Shown piece by piece: positions 3,926-45,756 of a DNA stretch of 64,000 nucleotides (positions are counted from its first letter, which is position 1; the number at the start of each line of letters is the position of its first letter). This DNA comes from Nitrospirales bacterium (GTDB lineage Bacteria > Nitrospirota > Nitrospiria > Nitrospirales > UBA8639), in the NCBI GenBank assembly GCA_029261295.1, contig JAJDBP010000017.1, positions 310,001 through 374,000 of the forward strand, written 5' to 3'. The notes beneath the pieces are model-generated. The model did not search any database. It was not told the DNA's origin and saw nothing but the letters and a program-made list of their open reading frames with translations. The position numbers and the translations under genes are program-made.

Positions 3926-4450
3926 TTAATTGGTTTCTGCCGTTTCTGCTGTTTCTGCCGGAATATCTTCCGTAGCGGTAGGCTCTTCGGCAATTGGCTC
4001 TTCTCCAGCCTGTTTAGCCAAAGTGACTTGAATTTTAGTGACCACATCACGATGCAACTTTATAGGCACAGGAAAAGTTCCCAATTCTTTGAGTGGTTGA
4101 GGTAACTGAATTTTCCGACGATCAACCGTCATGCCCTGGGCAGCTAATTGTTCGGCGATATCCTTTGAGGTCACCGAGCCAAATAATTTATCGTCCTTCC
4201 CCGTTTGCACTTCAAAGGTCAAGGAAACATTTGACATCTGCTTGCCAATATCTCCTAACGCCTCTACTTCTTTTTTTGCCTTTTGGTCAATTTGCCGCTT
4301 CAAATGCTGTAGAAATTTCACCTGACGGTCTTCAGCTAAAACCGCTTTTTTCCGTGGTAAGAGAAAATTTCTGGCGTAGCCATCAGCGACAGTTAAGACG
4401 TCTCCCAAATACCCTAAACCTTCGACATTTTCCTGCAAAATCACCTTCAT
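3926..4450 (-). CDS. rplI: large ribosomal subunit protein bL9
   Basis: A 174-residue ribosomal protein. The N-terminal 23S-binding domain shows the diagnostic start MKVILQENVEGLGYLGD and the DGYARNFLLPRKKA signature. It is followed by the central helix and a C-terminal domain (about 80-150). An acidic Glu/Thr/Ala-rich tail of about 25 residues exceeds the usual 150-residue length. An AAGGAG ribosome-binding site precedes the ATG, and a sigma70-type promoter is visible upstream (4486-4514). The usual partners rpsF, rpsR and dnaB are absent here, and glyA follows directly instead. Confidence 0.96.
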   Translation of the reverse strand: MKVILQENVEGLGYLGDVLTVADGYARNFLLPRKKAVLAEDRQVKFLQHLKRQIDQKAKKEVEALGDIGKQMSNVSLTFEVQTGKDDKLFGSVTSKDIAEQLAAQGMTVDRRKIQLPQPLKELGTFPVPIKLHRDVVTKIQVTLAKQAGEEPIAEEPTATEDIPAETAETAETN

Positions 4451-4485
4451 AGATAGCTCTCCTTAGCCTAGCGAATAAGGGAAAC

Positions 4486-4514
4486 ATCTTAAGACCGATG
4501 ATAGAAAAAGTCAA
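4486..4514 (-). promoter_or_regulatory. sigma70-type promoter for rplI-glyA-nrdR
   Basis: Reading the minus strand, TTGACT (4509-4514) and TAAGAT (4486-4491) are separated by exactly 17 bp. This places transcription start about 30 bp upstream of the rplI ATG. Seen by eye only. Confidence 0.6.
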
Positions 4515-4597
4515 TTGAATTGCCCTGTTGGTTCGCGTATATCACTATAAAGGAGATATATTTGTATTCTAGAAATTTCAGAATACCAAGCTTTATT

Positions 4598-4626
4598 TTG
4601 ACAAATTTCGGAATGTTCACGAGATA
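4598..4626 (+). promoter_or_regulatory. possible weak promoter for the 4694 gene
   Basis: TTGACA (4598-4603) is a perfect -35 box. At 17 bp spacing the -10 position reads GAGATA, which is poor; a better hexamer, TATACT, lies further downstream at non-standard spacing. The site is about 70 bp upstream of the chosen ATG. Confidence 0.3.
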
Positions 4627-4693
4627 CCGTATACTGACCAGAAGATTAGATGGTAAAAAGTAATTGCACGTAATAGTGGGGGTTTTTCAAAGT

Positions 4694-5179
4694 ATGACTG
4701 CCATTCAGATTGCCAAACTGATCACGTGCCTGTTGCTGCTATCGGTCATGAATCCACCTCAGACTTTGGCCGAAGGGAAAATGGCCAAGGAGACACCTGG
4801 ACCAGAACCCTTTAGCGATTTGAATCTTCGATTCAGCAACCGTCCTCTAGATCCACCTGAAAATCTTATTGTTCAAACAGTCCCATTAACGGATTTTTCC
4901 GTAGCCACAGCCATGGTGGCCCCTTCGCCACAGGCCGTTATTTTTGAAAACGACCTTCGGCAACGGCTGGCCGTTCTTACTCAGGATGAAACTGGGCCTC
5001 TCACCCTCTTTCTGCTGGCACCCCTCCCCCTTGATCCCAAGCTCCCGAGCCTGGTTCAATGTGCGCATGATCGTCGCTGTGAGACTGACCGAACCCCGCT
5101 CACTGGAGGCCTAGGGTGCTTGGCCCTCTGTCTGAAGGAACAACTCGAAGCCGTCGCGACTAATCCTCTCCCACGATAA
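4694..5179 (+). CDS. small exported protein of unknown function
   Basis: About 161 residues. I prefer ATG 4694 to a possible TTG at 4664, because it puts a conventional signal peptide at the N-terminus (MTAIQIAKLITCLLLLSVM, then NPPQTLAEG) and a G-rich Shine-Dalgarno-like run lies upstream. The mature part is Pro-rich, with four cysteines near the end (CAHDRRC and CLALC). These could form disulfides in the periplasm. No family is recognised. The gene ends 4 bp before the SF1-helicase-like gene, so the two are probably one operon. Confidence 0.6.
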   Translation: MTAIQIAKLITCLLLLSVMNPPQTLAEGKMAKETPGPEPFSDLNLRFSNRPLDPPENLIVQTVPLTDFSVATAMVAPSPQAVIFENDLRQRLAVLTQDETGPLTLFLLAPLPLDPKLPSLVQCAHDRRCETDRTPLTGGLGCLALCLKEQLEAVATNPLPR

Positions 5180-5183
5180 ACAG

Positions 5184-6686
5184 ATGAAACTCGACGACCT
5201 ACTTACTCAAGCCACCTCTCAACTTCGCGATGAACGAGAAATCGCGATGAATCAGGGGTTAGATGCACCCTTAGATATTCCCCATGCGTCTCATCTTGGC
5301 AAAGTTGGCTCGCTCCATCTTTATAGCTGCGAGGTCTTGCCGGGAAGCAAGATTATTGCTGATGTCCCCATGACGCTTTTACCAGGAAACGACATGGAAG
5401 CCACCGAAGGCTATCTCCTAGGTTGGGTCAATGGCACCCTTCTTATCCAAACCTTTGACCATGTTGGGAAAACCCTCGAGCATTGCACCCTTATTCCGGA
5501 TACCTCTGGATTTTTAGAAATGGGTGCGACACGACTTTCCGACATGGTCACGAAACCCGATTCGTTTACACTTGGACCAGCCGAACGACTGGTCCCATGG
5601 CTACAACCCTCGCCAGGAGCCGATGCTGGCCAAGCCCGAGATAATATTCCCCCCGCTGTACTCTCCATGATGTGGGGCGATGATCGAGCAACTCGATGGA
5701 CCAAACTGACTACCCTCATTGTGGATCAAGTGAAGAAAAATAAACGCATTCTCTTAGTCGCACCCGATCATGAAACCGTGGATGCCTTAACCGGAGCCAC
5801 CGCGCACGCCTTAAAAATGGCAGCTCTTCCCCACCGCAGCATACTTTGTCGCTATGAAATGGCGCTCACCAAACCATCAGCCACCATGCCGATTCATGAA
5901 CTCGGCTATGAAGCTCAGATGTACCACTTTTATGCCAAAGCGAATGCCAACAAAATCGCCCTGCGAAAAAAATACGATCGTTTTCGGGAACTCACGCCCA
6001 TCTTGGCCTACAAGCGCGACAAACAAAAAGATCTGAATGAAGTCAAACTATTAGAATGGCGATTGCTCACCCAACTCAGTGATTGGCAGGGCAAGGTCAA
6101 AGGAATTGATAAAATCCTCAGAGACTACGAAGCCTTACCAATATGGAAACGGATGGGGATGCAATTCACTGGAAAAAACATAGAGACCTTGGCTGAATAC
6201 CGCGTGATTTACGAAGGAAAAATTCACGGACTTATGCAAGAAGTAGAAGTCGCGCAAGCCCGCATCAAAGAACTCATTCCTGAAGCAACCATCCCTAAGG
6301 ACTTACGTCCGGAATATGATGAACTCAAAGAAGAAATAAAACGACTTGGCGGGACAAAGAAAATCAGAGAAATGCTCAGTGCGGGAGAAGGAACCAACCG
6401 CCAAGCCTTTGCTCAAAACAAACGAGTCATGGCCACGACACCTGGTCGAATTTTGACCGATCCTCTCTTTCGAAAAGTGCCCTATGATCTCCTTATTGTA
6501 GACGATGCACCACGTATCCCCACTCCCTTACTCCTTGCCGCAAGCGGACTCATTCGTGAACGTATTATTTTAAGTGGAGATACCAATGACTTGGTGCAAG
6601 GTCAGGACCCCTCGCAGACTAGATGGCCTCATGAACTCTTAAGAACCACACTCAGTTCAGCGGCTCAACCCACTGCAGTGGGATAA
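5184..6686 (+). CDS. degenerate SF1 helicase/AAA_11-like protein lacking Walker A
   Basis: A 500-residue cytoplasmic protein. An N-terminal beta-rich region (about 45-130) precedes a RecA-like core interrupted by a long charged helical insertion (about 250-400). The layout recalls the first RecA domain of Upf1/Dna2-type SF1 helicases: KRILLVAPDHETVDAL at about 187-202 resembles motif Ia, YDLLIVDDAPR (434-444) resembles Walker B (DEAQ/DDA), and ILSGD (462-466) resembles motif III. Where the P-loop GPPGTGKT should be, the protein reads GDDRATRWT (174-182), and the second RecA domain is absent. I infer a non-ATPase derivative, perhaps with a binding or scaffold role. Function unknown. Confidence 0.6.
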   Translation: MKLDDLLTQATSQLRDEREIAMNQGLDAPLDIPHASHLGKVGSLHLYSCEVLPGSKIIADVPMTLLPGNDMEATEGYLLGWVNGTLLIQTFDHVGKTLEHCTLIPDTSGFLEMGATRLSDMVTKPDSFTLGPAERLVPWLQPSPGADAGQARDNIPPAVLSMMWGDDRATRWTKLTTLIVDQVKKNKRILLVAPDHETVDALTGATAHALKMAALPHRSILCRYEMALTKPSATMPIHELGYEAQMYHFYAKANANKIALRKKYDRFRELTPILAYKRDKQKDLNEVKLLEWRLLTQLSDWQGKVKGIDKILRDYEALPIWKRMGMQFTGKNIETLAEYRVIYEGKIHGLMQEVEVAQARIKELIPEATIPKDLRPEYDELKEEIKRLGGTKKIREMLSAGEGTNRQAFAQNKRVMATTPGRILTDPLFRKVPYDLLIVDDAPRIPTPLLLAASGLIRERIILSGDTNDLVQGQDPSQTRWPHELLRTTLSSAAQPTAVG

Positions 6687-6844: not shown

Positions 6845-6930
6845 GCCGAAGTGGCGGAATGGCAGACGCACTAGATTCAGGGTCTAGCGCCCTCCGGGGT
6901 GTGCGGGTTCAAGTCCCGCCTTCGGCACCA
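6845..6930 (+). tRNA. tRNA-Leu (anticodon CAG)
   Basis: An 86-nt class II tRNA. The acceptor stem GCCGAAG pairs with CTTCGGC, and the 3' CCA is encoded. The D-arm region reads GTGGCGGAATGGCAGACGC. The anticodon stem CTAGA/TCTAG encloses the loop TTCAGGG, giving anticodon CAG (codon CUG). A long variable arm and the T-arm GCGGGTTCAAGTCCCGC complete the tRNA-Leu form. Confidence 0.97.
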
Positions 6931-37764: not shown

Positions 37765-38457
37765 TTACGGACGAGCATGTATCTGATATCCAGTCAGACC
37801 AAAATAGGCTTCTTGAACCGTACTGACTGGAGAGACTTGCATAAGAAAGGGTGTTTGCCAATCACCATCACGTTCATCATACACACTCGGAATAAAAACA
37901 CGGGTAAAATGTCGCTGATAGGCCGCAAGAATTTTGAGTTGCAAACCACCGACAGGCCCAATATGGCCCTGATCAGTAATAGTTCCCGTCAACGTCCTAC
38001 CTGCCAATAACGGTTCCCCCTTCACCATTGCCACTACACTCAGAGCCACCATGGCCGAAAGGCTTTCTCCATACACGGTCAGCCCAGCGTAAGGAAACTT
38101 CAGCTGCACCGTCCAAGAATTGACAGGAAGCTTGGCGACTTCTAAGGCACGCGTAATCGCCTGATGAATGGCTTGTCTCGCTAATAAAGAAAACTGACCA
38201 GGCTCAGTATGAAATTGAATCCGTAACCCGCTTTGATCCCGACGTTCAAAGAGATCGATGTCAATATTTGAAACCAACCCCATAGGAAGATGGTGGCTAT
38301 TTATAGATGTCCCCAAGATAGGGACCTGTAAATGTAGAATTTGGCTCGGCGAGGGCTTAGCCCATACGCTTGCCCCCAAACAAACCACTCCCACCAAACC
38401 TAAAACTATCAACCAGGCTCTTGGAATAAGATGAATGAACATAATCCTAGATCTCAT
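37765..38457 (-). CDS. exported or anchored Lon-like (S16) serine protease
   Basis: 230 residues with an N-terminal hydrophobic segment (about 8-33). The rest resembles the proteolytic domain of Lon. YGESLSAMVALSV corresponds to Lon's catalytic-serine segment (S134), and GPVGGLQLKILAAYQ holds the catalytic lysine K175, so the Ser/Lys dyad is intact. No ATPase domain is present, unlike Lon or archaeal LonB. I infer a periplasmic-facing or anchored peptidase, perhaps for self-cleavage or a narrow substrate. The start could also be ATG five codons later. Confidence 0.75.
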   Translation of the reverse strand: MRSRIMFIHLIPRAWLIVLGLVGVVCLGASVWAKPSPSQILHLQVPILGTSINSHHLPMGLVSNIDIDLFERRDQSGLRIQFHTEPGQFSLLARQAIHQAITRALEVAKLPVNSWTVQLKFPYAGLTVYGESLSAMVALSVVAMVKGEPLLAGRTLTGTITDQGHIGPVGGLQLKILAAYQRHFTRVFIPSVYDERDGDWQTPFLMQVSPVSTVQEAYFGLTGYQIHARP

Positions 38458-38870: not shown

Positions 38871-39176
38871 ATGGGTTCAAAACTGTATGTAGGGGGATTA
38901 CCGTATTCCGCAACCCAAGATGAATTAACTGATTTGTTTGCGGCTCACGGATCCGTGCAATCAGCCAACATTATTAGCGACAAATTTACGGGCCAATCAC
39001 GTGGATTTGGTTTTGTGGAAATGTCTTCACAAGAAGAAGCCACCGCGGCAATTGAAGCATTAAATTCCACGGAGTTTGGAGGTCGCACACTAACTGTGAA
39101 CGAAGCACGCCCCCAAGCCCCGCGCACAGGTGGTGGCGGTGGTGGGTTTGGTGACAAACGCCGAAGCCGTTTCTAA
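38871..39176 (+). CDS. glycine-rich RRM RNA-binding protein
   Basis: 101 residues with one RNA-recognition motif. RNP2 is LYVGGL (5-10) and RNP1 is RGFGFVEM (44-51), with the aromatic RNA-stacking positions kept. A short Gly-rich basic tail follows (GGGGGGFGDKRRSRF). A perfect AAAAGGAGG site supports ATG 38871. Homologues in cyanobacteria and other bacteria act in RNA binding, often at low temperature. A strong terminator follows at 39199-39233, so it is a single-gene unit. Confidence 0.93.
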   Translation: MGSKLYVGGLPYSATQDELTDLFAAHGSVQSANIISDKFTGQSRGFGFVEMSSQEEATAAIEALNSTEFGGRTLTVNEARPQAPRTGGGGGGFGDKRRSRF

Positions 39177-39198
39177 AAACCAACCTATTTTTCACCAA

Positions 39199-39237
39199 AA
39201 AAGGGGAGAGGCTTACATAACCTCTCCCCTTTTCTTT
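39199..39237 (+). terminator. Rho-independent terminator of the RRM gene
   Basis: AAAAGGGGAGAGG (39199-39211) pairs perfectly with CCTCTCCCCTTTT (39221-39233) around a 9-nt loop, and the T-rich run continues. It lies about 20 bp after the RRM stop. Confidence 0.95.
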
Positions 39238-39281: not shown

Positions 39282-40919
39282 TTACAATTGAGGAATTTTC
39301 CAGTAATCTGGGCGCCAAAATAGTTGGTCCCGATCATTAAAATCTCCATGCTTTTGAGGTTTATTCTGGAGGATCTTTTCTGACTCCTCCAAGCTAGGGC
39401 GATTGTTCACTAGAGGGTCTTCAATGCCAAATCCCTTCAACGTCACCTGATTGCGAACCTCAGAGGGAATAATGTGCCAGGCCATGATAGCGTTATTCCA
39501 TTTCCCCAACGTTAATTGCATAAACGTGGCAGGATTGGAAGCAAAATCATCGATCCACTCCAGGAGACTGCCTCTGGGCAATACATCCTGGAAAGTTTTC
39601 TCCCGCGCATCACCGTAAGGATGCAGCGTGAGGTTATAAAATTTTGTTGTTGAGTGTTGTTCTAAATAGGGAAGCACAGAACGTTCGAAGTCTTTGATTG
39701 TACAGGCAGCAGCAAGATATACAATTTCATCATATTGAAAATCTTGTTCGGTACTATACAGACTCAGGAGTTCATTCAAGATAATCGTTCCCATACTGTG
39801 CCCAATCAACGTGATCTTGTAATCATCCTGCCCTTTTTGTTTTTTGAGATTCCGCAACTCTTCCATCAGGATTGATAATCCACCAGTAGGAACGCTTTCT
39901 TCCGGTTTCAAGATTGGATCTAATGTTGGGGAGTCATAACCAGCCATTTGTTGGGTTATTTCCCCTACTTCCCCAGTAAAAGTTCGTTCCTTGGGAACAA
40001 ACTCAGTGGGCTTTCGAAACACCGTTTGAGTTCGTCGAATCATATTGTCCCAGCCAGCTTTGCCAAACATATCCAAAAGGGGGGTCGTGACAAATCTTAT
40101 GATCCCTGGGAAGAAGAGGGTGGCTCGATCTTTAAACCATGGCCAAGAAAAGCGAGAGATCTTGTTTGCGCCCAGATGAATTTGTTGGAGATTTTCCGGT
40201 GCATAAAAATCGGCATTAAAAGCGTCCACTTCAGCCTGTGACGGGACGGGAACAGGGGTTAGTCCACGATAGAGTTGAAAACCCATGGTGACCGGATACC
40301 GAAAAATCGCTCTTCCTAGGTCGGCCAGAAAATAGAAAGGGGCGGATAGCGGCCCCAAGACCGGAGCTTCCTTGCCTTGTCGAATTCGGAATAGATGGTC
40401 GGCATATGCGGCATCCATACCCGATTCCCAATTCACCAGAATAGGGTAATAGTCATCAACAGCAGCATCCTTTTTAGTTTCAGGTTTAGCTCCAGGCTCT
40501 GCCTCTTGGCGCTCGCCTATTCGCTCCATCAATTCGGCTAAATGAATGCCTTCGCTCACAGAACTCTGAATGCCCTTTAGGCCGCCATGAACATATAGCA
40601 AGATACGTTTTCGGTTAGGATTTGTTCGTCGTTCCTCTTGAAGGTTTTTGATAATACTTCTTACCTGTTCTTCAATTCCCTCATATTGCAAAATTCCCGG
40701 CTCACCAGATTCCTTCATTTCTAGAGGATACGCATCACCATTACCCTGAAACGCCACAATATGCTTCAAGCTATAGGTATACTTCTTTGGCAAATCCCAT
40801 TCAGGGGATTTAGTTTTTTTATCAATGTCGAATTGATTCCACTGGACAAAAACCTTTGGGCTGCATCCACAACAAAACATGATGAATCCAAGGAGAAAAG
40901 TGACGTATGTAAAGTTCAT
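39282..40919 (-). CDS. alpha/beta-hydrolase lipoprotein
   Basis: 545 residues. The N-terminus has a lipobox-like end (LLGFIMFCCGCS; the lipidated Cys is most likely C19), so it is anchored to the outer or inner membrane. GHSMG (373-377) with nucleophile S375 follows the strand YKITLIGHSMG, as in lipases and esterases. An RILLYVHGGLKG segment (about 105-116) provides the oxyanion-type strand. The rest of the triad cannot be placed with certainty. Large Lys/Glu-rich insertions sit between. It is the first of three minus-strand lipoprotein genes at 39-45 kb. The substrate is unknown. Confidence 0.75.
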   Translation of the reverse strand: MNFTYVTFLLGFIMFCCGCSPKVFVQWNQFDIDKKTKSPEWDLPKKYTYSLKHIVAFQGNGDAYPLEMKESGEPGILQYEGIEEQVRSIIKNLQEERRTNPNRKRILLYVHGGLKGIQSSVSEGIHLAELMERIGERQEAEPGAKPETKKDAAVDDYYPILVNWESGMDAAYADHLFRIRQGKEAPVLGPLSAPFYFLADLGRAIFRYPVTMGFQLYRGLTPVPVPSQAEVDAFNADFYAPENLQQIHLGANKISRFSWPWFKDRATLFFPGIIRFVTTPLLDMFGKAGWDNMIRRTQTVFRKPTEFVPKERTFTGEVGEITQQMAGYDSPTLDPILKPEESVPTGGLSILMEELRNLKKQKGQDDYKITLIGHSMGTIILNELLSLYSTEQDFQYDEIVYLAAACTIKDFERSVLPYLEQHSTTKFYNLTLHPYGDAREKTFQDVLPRGSLLEWIDDFASNPATFMQLTLGKWNNAIMAWHIIPSEVRNQVTLKGFGIEDPLVNNRPSLEESEKILQNKPQKHGDFNDRDQLFWRPDYWKIPQL

Positions 40920-41095
40920 GTTCTTAAATCAGCCAGGACGATAAAAATTTCCTAAATCTACGGTTACCCGGCTCAACTCTAAGTTTGGCATTACAGGCCT
41001 TAAAAAAAAGTTCCTGCGGATACATTCCATTGTCTTTTATGTAAATCCCAAGCCTTCCAGTTTCCCAAAAAAGCTCTACGTTTTGTCAAAAGTTT

Positions 41096-42277
41096 TTAAA
41101 GCACTTTACAATGAGGAGGAGGCTTGTATTTGTCTAACGCATGCAAGGCACTGTCTAGCAAATCTTTGAAAAGTGGTATATCGTCGTACTTTCTCCTTTG
41201 TTCCTCCCAAAGTTTTTTAAACGCTTGTTTATCAGTTTCCGTGGCGGCACAGGCGTTAAAAAGCTTCACCCAACGAACAAGATTCCTTGGAGTCAAATTC
41301 TCGGGGGTAACGTGAGGCAACGGTTTAATCATGCAGGCGTTGTGGAATTCCAGCACATCGTCAATACCCTCTTCGATGCCATAATATTTCCGGTCTTTGT
41401 CTTCATTTTCACGGCAAGCCTGATCTTGACGACATCTGACTTTCTCCTTAAAGACTTTATAACGATATTTTTCTTCTTGTCGAAGTTTCTTAAAACGGAT
41501 GCGTTGGTCCTCTTTGAAAACATCGTATTCCTCCTTGGGCAACTTGTACTTCCAAACAGGTTTCCGTTTTGTTATAGGGTCAAAAATGAAGGGCCGCCAC
41601 AAAAATGCAGCCATTCGCAAAGCTCCCACAGACTTTAAAGATACAATTTTGGATTCTTCATCTACCAAAAGCTCAACTTGCGGAATGAACCAAGCTGGAG
41701 GCATCTTTGGATTGATCTCTTTCGCACTCTTGGCCTTGGTGGTGGGGTTTTTCCTTTTAGCCTCAAGCATCATAAAACTTTCAATCTCATCTTCTTTGGG
41801 AACACTATCTTGGGGGGGGGAAACACGCCCTGCCCCTGACCGGAAAAAGGTAAATTCCAAATTGGCGATTTGTTGTCGGTCAAACTCTGGCAGCCATCCA
41901 TCCCAATAATCCTTACATAGTTGAAATGATAAATCCTGAAAACATTTTTGAATACTATTTCGTGCTTTTTCCGTATTTCCTAAGTCGGAAAGTGTTTCTT
42001 CATAGTGTTTCAGCAATTTCTTGCGGGTCAGGGGCAAACGATTAGCTTTAATCGGCCATTCGTCAGCTTTGACCAGCCAATAATTGGCATTAGCTTTACT
42101 TTTCCAATGGCTCATTTCAATCAACCAATAGTCGGCTTTCATTCCAACCTCGGAGCAAGCCGCTGGCATCTTTGCTCCTGGAGTGGCTGGCATCTTTGCC
42201 CCTCGAGTGCTTGTACATCCATTACTCAGAAGGAAAAAAACTAAGGCAATACAGCCTAAGCGAGTTAAACGCGTCAT
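41096..42277 (-). CDS. lipoprotein of unknown function with short repeats
   Basis: 393 residues with a lipobox (LLSNGCTS, Cys 21). Two early repeats, GAKMPATP and GAKMPAAC, are followed by imperfect repeats built on ADYWLIEM/NANYWLVKADEW. The rest is basic and hydrophilic (many Lys, Glu, Trp), with QDQACRENEDKDRKYYG in the middle. No family is recognised. A nine-G run (41812-41820, read as C on the coding strand) lies within codons for SPPQ and may allow slippage. It lies between the hydrolase and coiled-coil lipoprotein genes, 176 bp from the former. Confidence 0.6.
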   Translation of the reverse strand: MTRLTRLGCIALVFFLLSNGCTSTRGAKMPATPGAKMPAACSEVGMKADYWLIEMSHWKSKANANYWLVKADEWPIKANRLPLTRKKLLKHYEETLSDLGNTEKARNSIQKCFQDLSFQLCKDYWDGWLPEFDRQQIANLEFTFFRSGAGRVSPPQDSVPKEDEIESFMMLEAKRKNPTTKAKSAKEINPKMPPAWFIPQVELLVDEESKIVSLKSVGALRMAAFLWRPFIFDPITKRKPVWKYKLPKEEYDVFKEDQRIRFKKLRQEEKYRYKVFKEKVRCRQDQACRENEDKDRKYYGIEEGIDDVLEFHNACMIKPLPHVTPENLTPRNLVRWVKLFNACAATETDKQAFKKLWEEQRRKYDDIPLFKDLLDSALHALDKYKPPPHCKVL

Positions 42278-42295
42278 GGTAAATTGTTATTAGGA

Positions 42296-42351
42296 TGAGG
42301 TTCTTCTAATTAGCGCCATCTCACTATTGGCTACTAAGAAGAAGAACCTCA
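42296..42351. repeat. 12-bp inverted repeat between two lipoprotein genes
   Basis: TGAGGTTCTTCT (42296-42307) and AGAAGAACCTCA (42340-42351) are perfect inverted copies around a 32-nt loop. They lie in the gap between the coiled-coil lipoprotein gene and the next one downstream on the minus strand. The position suits an attenuator or RNA-stability element; there is no T-tract. Confidence 0.55.
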
Positions 42352-42388
42352 ATTCCAAACCAGAGGATCACTTTTGAGCCTGATTGTC

Positions 42389-44818
42389 CTATTTTTCTTC
42401 CGAGGGGGGAGGGGCACCTCCCTCTTCTGGTTTTTCTTTCACAATGACTTTGCGAGTCACTGGATCAGCTTCATTCCCCGCAGAATCGCTCACAGTATAT
42501 TTGACTGTGTATTCACCCGAAGTGTTTACATTCACTAAAGTGGCATCCGTGTTAATTTTTTTAGTTAACTCAGAATCATCATCGAAATTATCTGTGGCCG
42601 TCGCCTTTTCCTCTTTATAGCCGTCACCGACCGTAAGGGTTATTTCTTTCTCCCCATTCAATTCAATCTTCGGTTTTTCTGTATCTAAAACCACTTTTAC
42701 AGTTGCTACTTTAACCGCTGCTCTCTTGGCACTATCCGTCACATGGAAGGTCACAGGTGTCTCTGCTACCTCAAACGTATCTGGAGCATTATTCTCAACA
42801 CCACTACTGATATCCGCGCCCAAAGCGTCTACTGCCTGAACTCTCTTCAAAAATCCTTTAATTCTCTCGTCTGTTTTAGGCAAACCCGTTGCGTTATTTG
42901 TGCTGAAAGTATCATCATTGGGTGCCATGATTGTTGGATTAAGACTATCTTTCGTCTTGGCCGATAAGACTTTTTTCTCACTATGCTGCGCCTTCAGTTC
43001 ATCTAGACTGACCTGGAGATCGTTGAGGGTATTTTGTCTTTCTTGTAGAAGTTTTTGAGCAGCATCCTGTTTCTCCTCTGCTCTAACAAGCTTAATTTCT
43101 GCTTTATTGGCATCCTTTGTTGAATCTTCTACTTTTTTCTCTGCCTTATTTACTTTATTCAGCTGTGTCTTTAATTCATTCTCTGATTTTTCAATTTCAG
43201 TTTTCTTAATAATTAAATCTGTTGTGAAGGTTGAGATTTCATTTTTAACTTCCGCTAGCTCATCTTCTAATCTTTGAATCTCAGCATCTTGGCTTTTTAT
43301 TTTCGCATCCTCTAGATTAAAAAAATCGTTCAGTTCCTTATAAGCAACCTCTGTCTTTTCTACACGTTCTTCACGACCCATGTTTTTATCAACAACAAGC
43401 TTCTGTTTTGTTGTTTTATAGTTTTCTCCCGCTTCCTTTTTCCTCTTTCCAACATCACCTACTATATGTATTCTTTCGGACGTTGCAACAGCCAAGTTTT
43501 TTTCTTTTTCTTCTCTGCGTTCATTAGATGTTTTAAGATTCTCTTGTAGCTCCATTATTTTTGTCCTTAGGTTCGCTATTTTATTTTTACCATTCTCTTC
43601 GACCTTTTCTTTTTCCTGTTGAGAATTTTCTAGACTCTTCTTAACTTGCCTAAGTGCATCTTGTTTATCATCGAAATCATCTGTCGCATTATCCAAGTCA
43701 CTTTTGGATGCTTTTTCAACGGACTTGGCTTCAGCAAATTCAGCTTTCTTTTTCACAATTTCTGATTCGGTCCTATTAATTGATTTCTCTATCTCTTTGA
43801 TCTCGCCGCGAATTTTTTGGGACTTTTCAGAGGTAGCTTTCTTTCCTGAGGCTTCATCTAATGCCTGCCTAGCCTTGCCAAAATCATCAAAAAATCCTTT
43901 CATGCGCTTCACACCAGGATCATCCACTCGCTCAATGGCGATCGCCACTTCCTCAAGCCCAGCTACCACACTACAATGATCGTGGTACACAATTGCATCT
44001 CCTATCGCCTCTCTAACCGTGTATTCTGTCAACGTTGCGCTTTTTTTCGGGCTACTTTTCTCTTCAGGGTTCAGTCTTGGTTCACGTTCATCCTTTATTC
44101 TTTTATAAAGGGCTTCTCTTTTTTTCTCAAAACCTCTTGTCAGAACTTGCACCGTTTGGCTTTGAAAATAGGACTCATTGACCTCAGCTCTAACTCCGCT
44201 TAAGATTGCAGCAATGCCCGATAATGCCCGCACTGTGTTTGCTGGCGTAAAAATAGCTCCTGCCCCGGCCACGGCTGTTGTAGCAGCTCCTAGGAGTAGA
44301 TTTGCTTCGGAGTCGAATTTTTTTAGGTATTGTTTATAGGATCCACACCGTTGATTTGAGGCCGCAATAATACGGTCTTGAATACGATTCCTTGCTAATA
44401 GACCTTCTTCTTTCGTTTTATCCTTAAAATGCTTATCAAAGCCTTCAAACGCCTCTTCCAATCTTCGTGATCTTATCTCAATAGGTAGTTCTTCATTAAT
44501 TTTTTCCCCTGTTTCTTCATCTATCCATGTCCTAGATTTATCGGAAACATCGTCTATATTCGGGGAAAGAAGGAAAGCTAAATCAATTTCTTCAAAGGAG
44601 TCCGGATCAATCAATTCCGTCGCTCCCTGCATCGAACTCCGTTTTTCCAACCATCCTGGATTTGCACATCCACTTAAATTTAACAGCATGATGCCTAGAA
44701 CGATGATCGCAAAGAAGCTGCCTGACATGGTCCTAGTGGTTTCTCCAAGTTTTTTTTTGTCTTGGCTGATACAGATAGCCACCTGGTGAATTTTAGATGA
44801 AGTAGGGGGTGCTGACAT
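42389..44818 (-). CDS. coiled-coil lipoprotein with DUF5011-like C-terminus
   Basis: 809 residues. AAGGAG precedes ATG 44816-44818. A lipobox-like sequence (MLLNLSGCANP, Cys about 51) follows a long basic leader, so the protein is probably lipidated. Residues about 330-620 form a strongly charged coiled coil (many Lys, Glu, Asp, Asn) that resembles a large helical spacer. The C-terminal 100 residues (LDTEKPKIELNGEKEITLTV and following GEYTVKYTVSDSAGNEAD) match DUF5011-like immunoglobulin-type domains. No function is established. I infer a cell-surface or periplasm-spanning scaffold. It lies upstream of the two other lipoprotein genes and downstream of the tandem boxes at 45174-45214. Confidence 0.75.
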   Translation of the reverse strand: MSAPPTSSKIHQVAICISQDKKKLGETTRTMSGSFFAIIVLGIMLLNLSGCANPGWLEKRSSMQGATELIDPDSFEEIDLAFLLSPNIDDVSDKSRTWIDEETGEKINEELPIEIRSRRLEEAFEGFDKHFKDKTKEEGLLARNRIQDRIIAASNQRCGSYKQYLKKFDSEANLLLGAATTAVAGAGAIFTPANTVRALSGIAAILSGVRAEVNESYFQSQTVQVLTRGFEKKREALYKRIKDEREPRLNPEEKSSPKKSATLTEYTVREAIGDAIVYHDHCSVVAGLEEVAIAIERVDDPGVKRMKGFFDDFGKARQALDEASGKKATSEKSQKIRGEIKEIEKSINRTESEIVKKKAEFAEAKSVEKASKSDLDNATDDFDDKQDALRQVKKSLENSQQEKEKVEENGKNKIANLRTKIMELQENLKTSNERREEKEKNLAVATSERIHIVGDVGKRKKEAGENYKTTKQKLVVDKNMGREERVEKTEVAYKELNDFFNLEDAKIKSQDAEIQRLEDELAEVKNEISTFTTDLIIKKTEIEKSENELKTQLNKVNKAEKKVEDSTKDANKAEIKLVRAEEKQDAAQKLLQERQNTLNDLQVSLDELKAQHSEKKVLSAKTKDSLNPTIMAPNDDTFSTNNATGLPKTDERIKGFLKRVQAVDALGADISSGVENNAPDTFEVAETPVTFHVTDSAKRAAVKVATVKVVLDTEKPKIELNGEKEITLTVGDGYKEEKATATDNFDDDSELTKKINTDATLVNVNTSGEYTVKYTVSDSAGNEADPVTRKVIVKEKPEEGGAPPPSEEK

Positions 44819-45270
44819 GAGGGTTGCTCCTTCTTTTTAAAAAGCATTCTGGTTGTCAGGAATAAGGTCTTATCTCAAGATGAAAATACGTTGACTCCTA
44901 GGATTTTTACTTTTCCATTCCTTCTCAAATTTTCCGAGTTTAGATATGGCTTATTTTATATAACCCAACCCTGAATATTTTCTTGTTAAGTATTTCACTA
45001 TAAAAATTTCGACTGAATTATTGGATTGCCTATTCAGAATGGAATTCTCTGAAATATATGCAAGGATGAGACCCTGGCATCGGATTTGTACGGGTTTTTT
45101 TAGCGGAAGCTTTCAAGGGAAAACCAATAGTTTTTTAGAAATGCCCATTTATTATGCAGCTTGCTGTTTAATGAAATGTATCTAAATAGATAATAAATGT
45201 ATCCGTTTAGATAACATATTTGATGTTAAAAAAAAACGACGGCTGGAAAATGTCCAGTAGGTTTTTCGAA
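44819..45270. other. intergenic region with tandem operator-like boxes
   Basis: 452 bp, AT-rich, between the coiled-coil lipoprotein gene (reading left) and the end of the CopD-like gene. No gene is seen. The notable elements are the tandem boxes at 45174-45214. Confidence 0.55.
45174..45214. promoter_or_regulatory. tandem AAATGTATC-N4-TAGATAA boxes
   Basis: Two 20-bp elements, AAATGTATCTAAATAGATAA (45174-45193) and AAATGTATCCGTTTAGATAA (45195-45214), start 21 bp apart, close to two helical turns. The first matches the palindrome region at 36220-36235. This is a probable operator pair for the coiled-coil lipoprotein gene, about 360 bp downstream on the minus strand. Confidence 0.55.
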
Positions 45271-45756
45271 TCAGGTTCGGACCATAACAACTGCAACGAA
45301 GAGGATGGCTAATCCCAGAAGAAGAGTGAGGCGACCAATAATTGGGGAGATTCGGAGGAGAAGCTTTTCCCCAACAACCAATTCAGAAGTTGGCTTGTGT
45401 TTGAGCGTTCGTACTTTTGGGCCAATGAACCGATCATGGGCAAGGGACACTACGATAAGTAAAAGAACGAGGGTTAATTTGATAAGAACTGATGATGGCC
45501 ATTTCACAAATGGCTCAGAGACATTCACTACATTGGGAAGCAGAATAGTCCCTGTGAGGGCTAGAAAGAATAGGGCAATCCACACAAGCTTCCGAAACCG
45601 TCTTGCCTGACTCACAAATTCGCGTTGAGCAGTTGCCGGATTGGAGGACTTTTTTATGAGAGGTACTGCAACCAGGGAGAGAAACAGCATTCCTCCCACC
45701 CAAAAGGTCGCCGCGATCAAGTGAAGCCAAACGAGGATACTTTCGGTAAGAGCCAT
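45271..45756 (-). CDS. CopD-family membrane protein
   Basis: 161 residues with four transmembrane helices. The start VWLHLIAATFWVGGMLFLSLV matches the CopD/DUF2269-type signature (His in the first helix and a conserved WVGG). The link to copper is by family name only and unproven here. The 152-bp gap to the divergent LOG-family gene must carry both promoters. Confidence 0.75.
   Translation of the reverse strand: MALTESILVWLHLIAATFWVGGMLFLSLVAVPLIKKSSNPATAQREFVSQARRFRKLVWIALFFLALTGTILLPNVVNVSEPFVKWPSSVLIKLTLVLLLIVVSLAHDRFIGPKVRTLKHKPTSELVVGEKLLLRISPIIGRLTLLLGLAILFVAVVMVRT

Follow-up and report, generated by a model that had tools for sequence, protein, structure and literature searches.

A predicted sigma-54 promoter heads a probable accessory envelope-lipoprotein operon in a variable slot of a Nitrospirales genome

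Introduction

Three large lipoprotein genes stand side by side on the minus strand of a 64,000-nt stretch of DNA from a Nitrospirales bacterium (the whole of which we call the window), at 39282-40919, 41096-42277 and 42389-44818. What holds them together: a common structure, a common site or a common switch? A sequence-only reading had taken them for an envelope-anchored module, perhaps acquired, in which a lipase-like enzyme is placed on a long spacer. Here we weigh that idea against comparisons with related genomes, and we favor as the probable explanation an accessory envelope-lipoprotein operon that occupies a variable slot and is controlled from a sigma-54 promoter.

Results

Since all three reading frames lie on the minus strand, the order of transcription is an 809-aa coiled-coil protein, a 393-aa orphan and a 545-aa serine hydrolase. 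Each protein begins with a lipobox-type signal (MNFTYVTFLLGFIMFCCGC before S, MTRLTRLGCIALVFFLLSNGC before T, and a signal ending in IIVLGIMLLNLSGC before A), and the positions, common strand and signals are exactly those first reported. As judged from sequence, all three have what defines a bacterial lipoprotein, namely a signal peptide with a lipobox ending in Cys; a simple scan returned lipobox candidates in only 4 of the 44 genes of the window, three of them being the operon proteins. The residue after Cys is S, T or A and never Asp, which would predict outer-membrane lipoproteins under the Lol rule (no Asp after Cys), a rule taken from E. coli and not from Nitrospirota.

The region had also been called AT-rich. 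It is (42.2% GC against 45.1%), but weakly so, with 3.4% of equal windows being as low. The low GC is due mostly to the Lys-rich coiled-coil gene (40.5%), the hydrolase and orphan genes being ordinary (44.5% and 43.3%). When the proposed check of G+C and codon use over 39-45 kb was run, GC was lower there, but the codon use of all three genes fell inside the normal spread of the window and gave no signal of foreign origin.

Upstream of the first gene, two 21-nt copies of a palindromic box, GTATCN6GATA, stand in tandem at 45174-45215 on the minus strand. The boxes had been noted as marking a boundary of the region; they are real, but they are better read as a predicted enhancer (UAS) at which a sigma-54 activator would bind. 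They were the most informative feature of the sequence-only reading. Tandem pairs with a period of 21-22 bp occur 4-20 times per genome in 21/21 genomes of the genus, while a reversed-pattern control gave 0 in all 21. At 45059-45074 on the same strand, 103 bp downstream of the boxes, lies a predicted -24/-12 promoter, GGGTCTCATCCTTGCA, which aligns with TGGTCTCTCGATTGCA from the homologous promoters of G013 and G011 and with TGGCCTTACCTTTGCA from G014. A sigma-54 promoter is defined by GG-N10-GC at -24/-12 and an upstream activator site, and both are present here at the level of sequence. Across the genus, 29 of the 38 unique sites have a sigma-54 site 50-170 bp downstream of the boxes (random mean 5.4, maximum 12), clustering at 100-125 bp, and the genes headed by boxes encode mostly exported proteins and regulators. 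The promoter is thus well supported, although the -24 half in the window (GGGTC) is below consensus strength.

The conserved promoter unit extends over ~165 bp (45049-45215, minus strand). It is common to the slot operons of G013, G011 and G005, to a relic in the G007 slot and to a hydrolase gene in G014. Its spacer is 64-66% identical to the promoters of G013, G011 and G014, ~10 sd above shuffles, and matches G005 more weakly. The G007 relic was matched independently by nhmmer (E 1e-12) and has no long ORF behind it. In G014 the unit heads a related hydrolase at a different locus, the sole case in which it stands directly before a hydrolase. Of the hydrolase genes tested at Nitrospirota loci, the remaining 22 have no promoter unit within 3 kb. 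A candidate before a G038 hydrolase was dropped, its box-to-promoter distance being outside the usual range. No conserved link between hydrolase and promoter was found across Nitrospirota.

The operon and its promoter lie between two convergent conserved genes, one for a 161-aa membrane protein (45271-45756, minus strand), called DUF4149 by resemblance only, and one for an RRM RNA-binding protein (38871-39176, plus strand), also labeled by resemblance. The gap between them is 6,094 bp in the window and ~2.0-6.7 kb in G005, G006, G009 and G011. In 10 of the 21 genus members (G001, G003, G004, G008, G010, G014, G016, G017, G018 and G019) the slot is empty, with a stop-to-stop gap of 72-90 bp that holds only a hairpin. 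The same hairpin, flanked on either side by runs of A and T, is found in the window at 39197-39237, where it is a predicted terminator and forms the far edge of the insertion. Occupied slots carry different genes in each species, with the same promoter unit before different cargo in G013, G011 and G005, and that of G009 holds a member of the hydrolase family. The slot is thus well supported as a variable site. Of the suggestion that the genes were acquired, the accessory part stands, given the empty sites and the two non-hydrolase genes without a full-length relative in the genus, while composition and codon use offer no proof. The window has a single tRNA, at 6845, and no integrase-like ORF was recognized by eye at 36-48.5 kb.

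A single transcript would cover the whole operon and stop at the predicted terminator (39197-39237). Co-transcription is made less certain by the intergenic gaps, of 111 and 176 nt, and by the strong stem-loop between the first and second genes (42296-42351, minus strand). This inverted repeat, reported earlier with 12-bp arms, is stronger than claimed: its arms are 18 nt long and 89% complementary around a 20-nt loop, and the intergenic RNA folds with z = -5.15. It is probably not a terminator because it has no U tract. It is also not a member of a repeat family, being present in a single copy in the genome.

The 809-aa protein (42389-44818, minus strand) combines an N-terminal domain rich in membrane helices, a coiled coil and an Ig-like C-terminus. 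The long coiled coil seen from the sequence is borne out by SMC-type matches (NCBIfam, E 7.7e-9) over residues 326-628, and the DUF5011-like end by a match to PF16403, Bact_surface_Ig-like (E 2e-18; 66.7 bits against a cut-off of 27), which we take to be the model formerly named DUF5011. PF16403 is the point in common with known proteins; what sets this protein apart is that the Ig-like end follows a coiled coil and a helical lipoprotein domain. In the phylum sample that helical domain has one further occurrence, as a stand-alone protein; its only relatives, in G181 and Pseudoalteromonas, have no adjoining hydrolase in the stretch read, and it has no match in phages or viral contigs. The protein is probably a lipid-anchored coiled-coil stalk with an Ig-like tip, serving as an adhesive or matrix-facing spacer. 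The 393-aa orphan (41096-42277, minus strand) has no relative in 41 genomes (its own and related ones, the genus being re-searched), plasmids or viral contigs, and its single-sequence structure model is uninformative (pLDDT 38.7). Within the genus, neither protein has a full-length relative; the only similarities are two weak ones, both to the common Ig-like end.

The 545-aa protein (39282-40919, minus strand) has the marks of the alpha/beta-hydrolase superfamily: a GXSXG nucleophile elbow after a central strand, a His after the last strand and an acid residue. The GHSMG motif is present at residues 373-377 as first reported, placing the nucleophile Ser375 after strand 368-374; His524 follows strand 492-496, and the acid is Asp457 or Asp437. 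Ser375, Asp457 and His524 are invariant in 52 sequences, with Asp/Glu437 as the alternative acid. The structure model (pLDDT 82.5) carries a large helical cap specific to the family. Its best fold matches are alpha/beta hydrolases, many of them lipid-ester enzymes (PGAP1/Bst1, Z 10.3; PlaB, 9.8; lysosomal phospholipase A2, 8.9), with Tle4 also among the neighbors, a comparison that does not in itself exclude families outside the match list. No Pfam model scored above its curated cut-off, the best of the named hydrolase families (Hydrolase_4, DUF900, DUF676, LCAT, Lipase_3) reaching 17.4 against 26.3 bits. The family is broad and exported, spanning many phyla and at least 106 loci; 57 of 76 members have a lipobox, with Asp at +2 in 0/57, which agrees with the earlier term "envelope-anchored". 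Among its neighbors elsewhere are DLH-like lipoproteins at 9 loci, a barrel-like protein at 5 and FadL-type porins at 2, and paralogues cluster in its own genome (C9:194-199 kb) and in G038 (three copies). The protein is probably a lipid-anchored serine hydrolase, predicted to be in the outer membrane, and it most likely acts on esters, its putative substrates being lipids or other amphiphilic compounds of the envelope or the extracellular space.

Discussion

We consider the accessory operon under sigma-54 control to be the probable explanation of this locus. An enhancer-binding protein would bind the tandem palindromes at 45174-45215 and switch on RNA polymerase-sigma-54 at the -24/-12 site (45074-45059). 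Candidates for this protein are an activator encoded at C9:307.5-308.9 kb and one of GAF type whose gene adjoins several of the boxes in related genomes. The resulting transcript would span all three genes and end at 39197-39237, yielding the presumed coiled-coil stalk with its Ig-like end first, the orphan lipoprotein second and the putative lipid-anchored hydrolase last. The three proteins would then have a switch and a compartment in common and need not form a complex. A more tentative extension, which we hold to be possible though short of an even chance, is that the slot serves as a cargo site anchored by its promoter. The portable ~165-bp enhancer-promoter would stay fixed while species swap the envelope-protein genes behind it, and it would also have taken a hydrolase gene to, or from, the other locus in G014.

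Could the slot genes instead be ancestral, lost from the ten empty species with the promoter retained longest? The hydrolase relative in the G009 slot and the G007 promoter relic would fit such a history. However, the empty slots are clean at 72-90 bp with no promoter remaining, the cargo differs in each occupied species, and in a quick, low-resolution tree the window hydrolase is unplaced and stands apart from the G009 slot copy; we regard this history as rather unlikely. Still less probable is the physical module, in which the other two lipoproteins, coiled coil and orphan, would space the enzyme off the membrane. One strand, one slot and one promoter before all three genes are what it would predict, but the genes occur separately: neither partner was found at any hydrolase locus fetched elsewhere, so that gene order is not conserved, and the relatives of the N-domain likewise lack an adjoining hydrolase in the stretch read. 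The enzyme there adjoins barrels, FadL or DLH-like proteins, and with a lipid anchor of its own it needs no tether. That the enzyme is an antibacterial or anti-phage toxin with guard proteins, and not a housekeeping or scavenging envelope enzyme, is very improbable, since despite the variable slot, the paralogue clusters and the resemblance to Tle4, it carries its own lipid anchor in the cell that makes it, no sign of secretion or immunity was seen next to it, and it comes under a promoter set that heads mostly exported proteins and regulators.

The predicted regulon resembles the PEP-CTERM/PrsK-PrsR sigma-54 regulon of Proteobacteria (PMC1569441; PMC9850573) in its activator motif upstream of a -24/-12 site, its long intergenic regions and its exported targets. 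It lacks the defining marks of that regulon. The motif of Haft et al. 2006 (PMC1569441) ends in TTTACA, has a spacer of ~63 nt and is proteobacterial only, whereas the Nitrospirota box is a tandem GTATCN6GATA palindrome with a spacer of ~100-125 bp; no PEP-CTERM tail was present on the targets read, and candidate activators near the sites score 287-343 bits against the PrsR model cut-off of 502.6. A text search of a limited set of papers did not find this box with its target set, an absence that is weak evidence. In having lipoprotein and envelope genes under sigma-54, the locus agrees with the view of sigma-54 as a controller of the bacterial exterior (Francke et al. 2011; PMC3162934). The hydrolase for its part shares fold, nucleophile elbow and top structural matches with the GPI inositol deacylase PGAP1/Bst1, the Legionella phospholipase PlaB and other lipid-ester alpha/beta hydrolases, but it is only 11-14% identical to PGAP1/Bst1 and PlaB at Z ~10, with Foldseek E above 0.02, and differs in its family-specific cap and lipid anchor.

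The findings point to a widespread exported serine-hydrolase family without a curated family model. They also predict the genes controlled by one sigma-54 activator across 21 related Nitrospirota genomes and make a testable regulon out of three lipoprotein genes that had no annotation. If the cargo-site reading is true, new surface proteins would come under an existing regulon with no need of an integrase, and a slot that keeps its promoter and place while its surface-protein genes change could help to explain variation of the outer surface.

Results

Three minus-strand lipoprotein genes are read in the order coiled-coil protein (809 aa, 42389-44818), unknown or orphan protein (393 aa, 41096-42277) and hydrolase (545 aa, 39282-40919). 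They lie between two convergent genes that are kept almost throughout the genus, one for a 161-aa membrane protein (45271-45756) and one for an RRM protein (38871-39176). The stop codons of these flanking genes are 72-90 bp apart in ten species, with only a hairpin with A and T runs between them. Since this hairpin is also kept in the window (39197-39237), adjoining the RRM gene, the 6 kb falls exactly into the interval from the membrane-protein gene to the terminator. In relatives' genomes (G numbers), the place holds a single hydrolase of the same family (G009), two other lipoproteins (G011 and G013), a response regulator, subtilase and aminotransferase (G005), or a helical lipoprotein with a lipase C-terminal remnant (G006; Lip_C, 24.2 bits, narrowly below the cut-off). 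The sequences thus show the site to be a slot. No signal peptide can be recognised in any frame upstream of the G009 hydrolase (fetched locus L022:8296-9690), which is possibly decaying or mis-started. A transposase-like remnant follows both lipoproteins in G013 (L193:2957-3571). The lipase C-terminal remnants in the G005 (L186:9281-9559) and G006 (L187:4740-5363) slots are related and suggest that another lipase was formerly present.

Ahead of the first gene stand tandem boxes (45174-45215, minus strand), two copies of GTATCN6GATA at 21-bp spacing, and a -24/-12 site (GGGTCTCATCCTTGCA, 45074-45059). A distance of 103 bp separates this site from the boxes, and the first start codon follows it after about 240 nt. 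The pattern GATAN{6,7}GTATCN6GATA occurs 4 to 20 times per genome in all 21 genomes of the genus, and its reversed control not once; in the window's genome further copies precede other genes, including one sigma-54 activator gene. A -24/-12 site follows the boxes by 50-170 bp in 29 of 38 distinct sites, nearly all at 100-125 bp, against a mean of 5.4 and a maximum of 12 for random positions. The downstream genes that were read by hand mostly encode exported proteins or lipoproteins and regulators, as a simple tally. Read from sequence, the window operon carries a predicted promoter of this architecture; the three genes would be co-transcribed, and the operon would depend on sigma-54. Elsewhere in this genome, a 732-aa secreted repeat protein (L202, about 3970-6170, plus strand; repeats like TANLGSASLKDSTVKGAVVNTAIG) is preceded by a sigma-54 site that is close to perfect and lies about 150 bp from a box.

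The box-to-minus-24 spacer is not common to the regulon at large. That of the window is 64-66% identical to the spacers of the G013 and G011 slot operons and of a hydrolase gene that G014, with its own slot empty, carries elsewhere; thus one hydrolase of the same family stands under the same promoter at another place. A profile of the window-, G013-, G011- and G014-type promoters independently found a promoter relic in the G007 slot, where no long ORF remains.

The hydrolase has many relatives. Of 296 genomes from the phylum, 33 were matched by a profile built from ten members, and when each species was represented by a single genome, the scan gave at least 106 loci, spread over Nitrospirota, Pseudomonadota, Planctomycetota, Verrucomicrobiota, Gemmatimonadota and other phyla. 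Two further copies lie in the window's genome (C9:194-199 kb, on the contig of which the window is 310001-374000), and G038 has three family genes in a row. Ser375, His374, Gly377, Asp457, His524 and Trp290 are invariant in 52 of 52 aligned members. Structure prediction gave a good model (pLDDT 82.5), with a strand at 368-374 leading to Ser375 and His524 past the last strand; between the strand on the oxyanion side and the nucleophile elbow lies a helical, partly hydrophobic insert, about 180 residues long, that would correspond in position to the lids of lipases. Structural neighbours are alpha/beta hydrolases, many with lipid-ester substrates (top PGAP1/Bst1, Z 10.3), at 11-14% identity, so these matches indicate fold and not family; no Pfam or NCBIfam model was reached. 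By its sequence we assign the protein to the alpha/beta-hydrolase superfamily, and it would be an esterase acting on amphiphilic substrates. A lipobox is found in 57 of 76 family members, none with Asp directly after the Cys.

FadL/TodX-type outer-membrane transporter genes occur shortly upstream of two relatives (L089:7208-8650, L133:7396-8340). In three other Nitrospirota, sigma-54 activator genes lie 1.8-2.4 kb upstream of the hydrolase (L079:4947-6356, L095:5492-6928, L089:5197-6813), those in L079 and L095 being themselves preceded by tandem boxes. A second, distant family gene, encoding about 690 aa where complete, is present in G005 (L186:10929-13016), G006 (L187:6632-8710), G007 (L026:1499-3562) and G001 (L188:2842-4323). 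It is a fusion of papain-type peptidase and alpha/beta hydrolase, demonstrated with Pfam for G006, and lies near the gene for a 230-aa protein (window 37765-38457), on the far side from the slot; it is absent from that place in the window.

Discussion

A sequence-only reading had proposed a perhaps acquired envelope module placing a lipase-like enzyme on a long spacer. Its features are present (three ORFs, lipoboxes, GHSMG, coiled coil, DUF5011-type end), and re-reading the sequence confirmed its tandem boxes and inverted repeat (42296-42351). By the criterion of that reading, the genes occur separately. No relative of the orphan turned up in searches of 40 related genomes, plasmids and viral contigs. 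The N-domain of the coiled-coil protein has one relative in G181, a lone 317-aa lipoprotein, and one in Pseudoalteromonas NC201 (436 aa), neither with a hydrolase beside it over the stretch read; within the genus, two weak matches (G006 and G007) reach only its common Ig-like end. Neither partner is present at any hydrolase locus fetched from other genomes, the very outcome that the sequence-only reading had set down as refuting its module. The evidence gives no support to a physical enzyme-on-a-spacer module. The AT-richness is real, exceeding 97% of equal windows, and is mainly due to a single Lys-rich gene; codon use of the three genes gave no sign of foreign origin.

By sequence, all three proteins carry lipid-anchor signals; they would be located at the outer membrane, the coiled-coil protein probably as stalk and adhesin. 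If extended, the roughly 300 residues of its coiled coil would span about 45 nm (0.15 nm per residue), beyond the usual periplasm, and the coiled coil would thus either fold back or extend outward. The strong hairpin separating the first two genes lacks a U tract; we therefore read it not as a terminator but as an element for processing or stability.

That sigma-54 governs the exterior of the cell is a known theme (PMC3162934). Among described arrangements, the nearest is found in Proteobacteria, the PrsR/PEP-CTERM promoter class, in which an activator motif and a sigma-54 site occupy long intergenic regions before exported proteins (PMC1569441). Box, spacing, phylum and targets all differ from those given there, and activators near our box sites score under the PrsR cut-off; we therefore regard the system as resembling PrsR in its working and do not class it as a member.

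Together, the three genes form an accessory lipoprotein operon, predicted to be controlled by sigma-54, at a variable slot. The shared spacers and the G007 relic argue that the promoter and its position are retained as the genes that follow are changed, a result that goes beyond the sequence-only reading.
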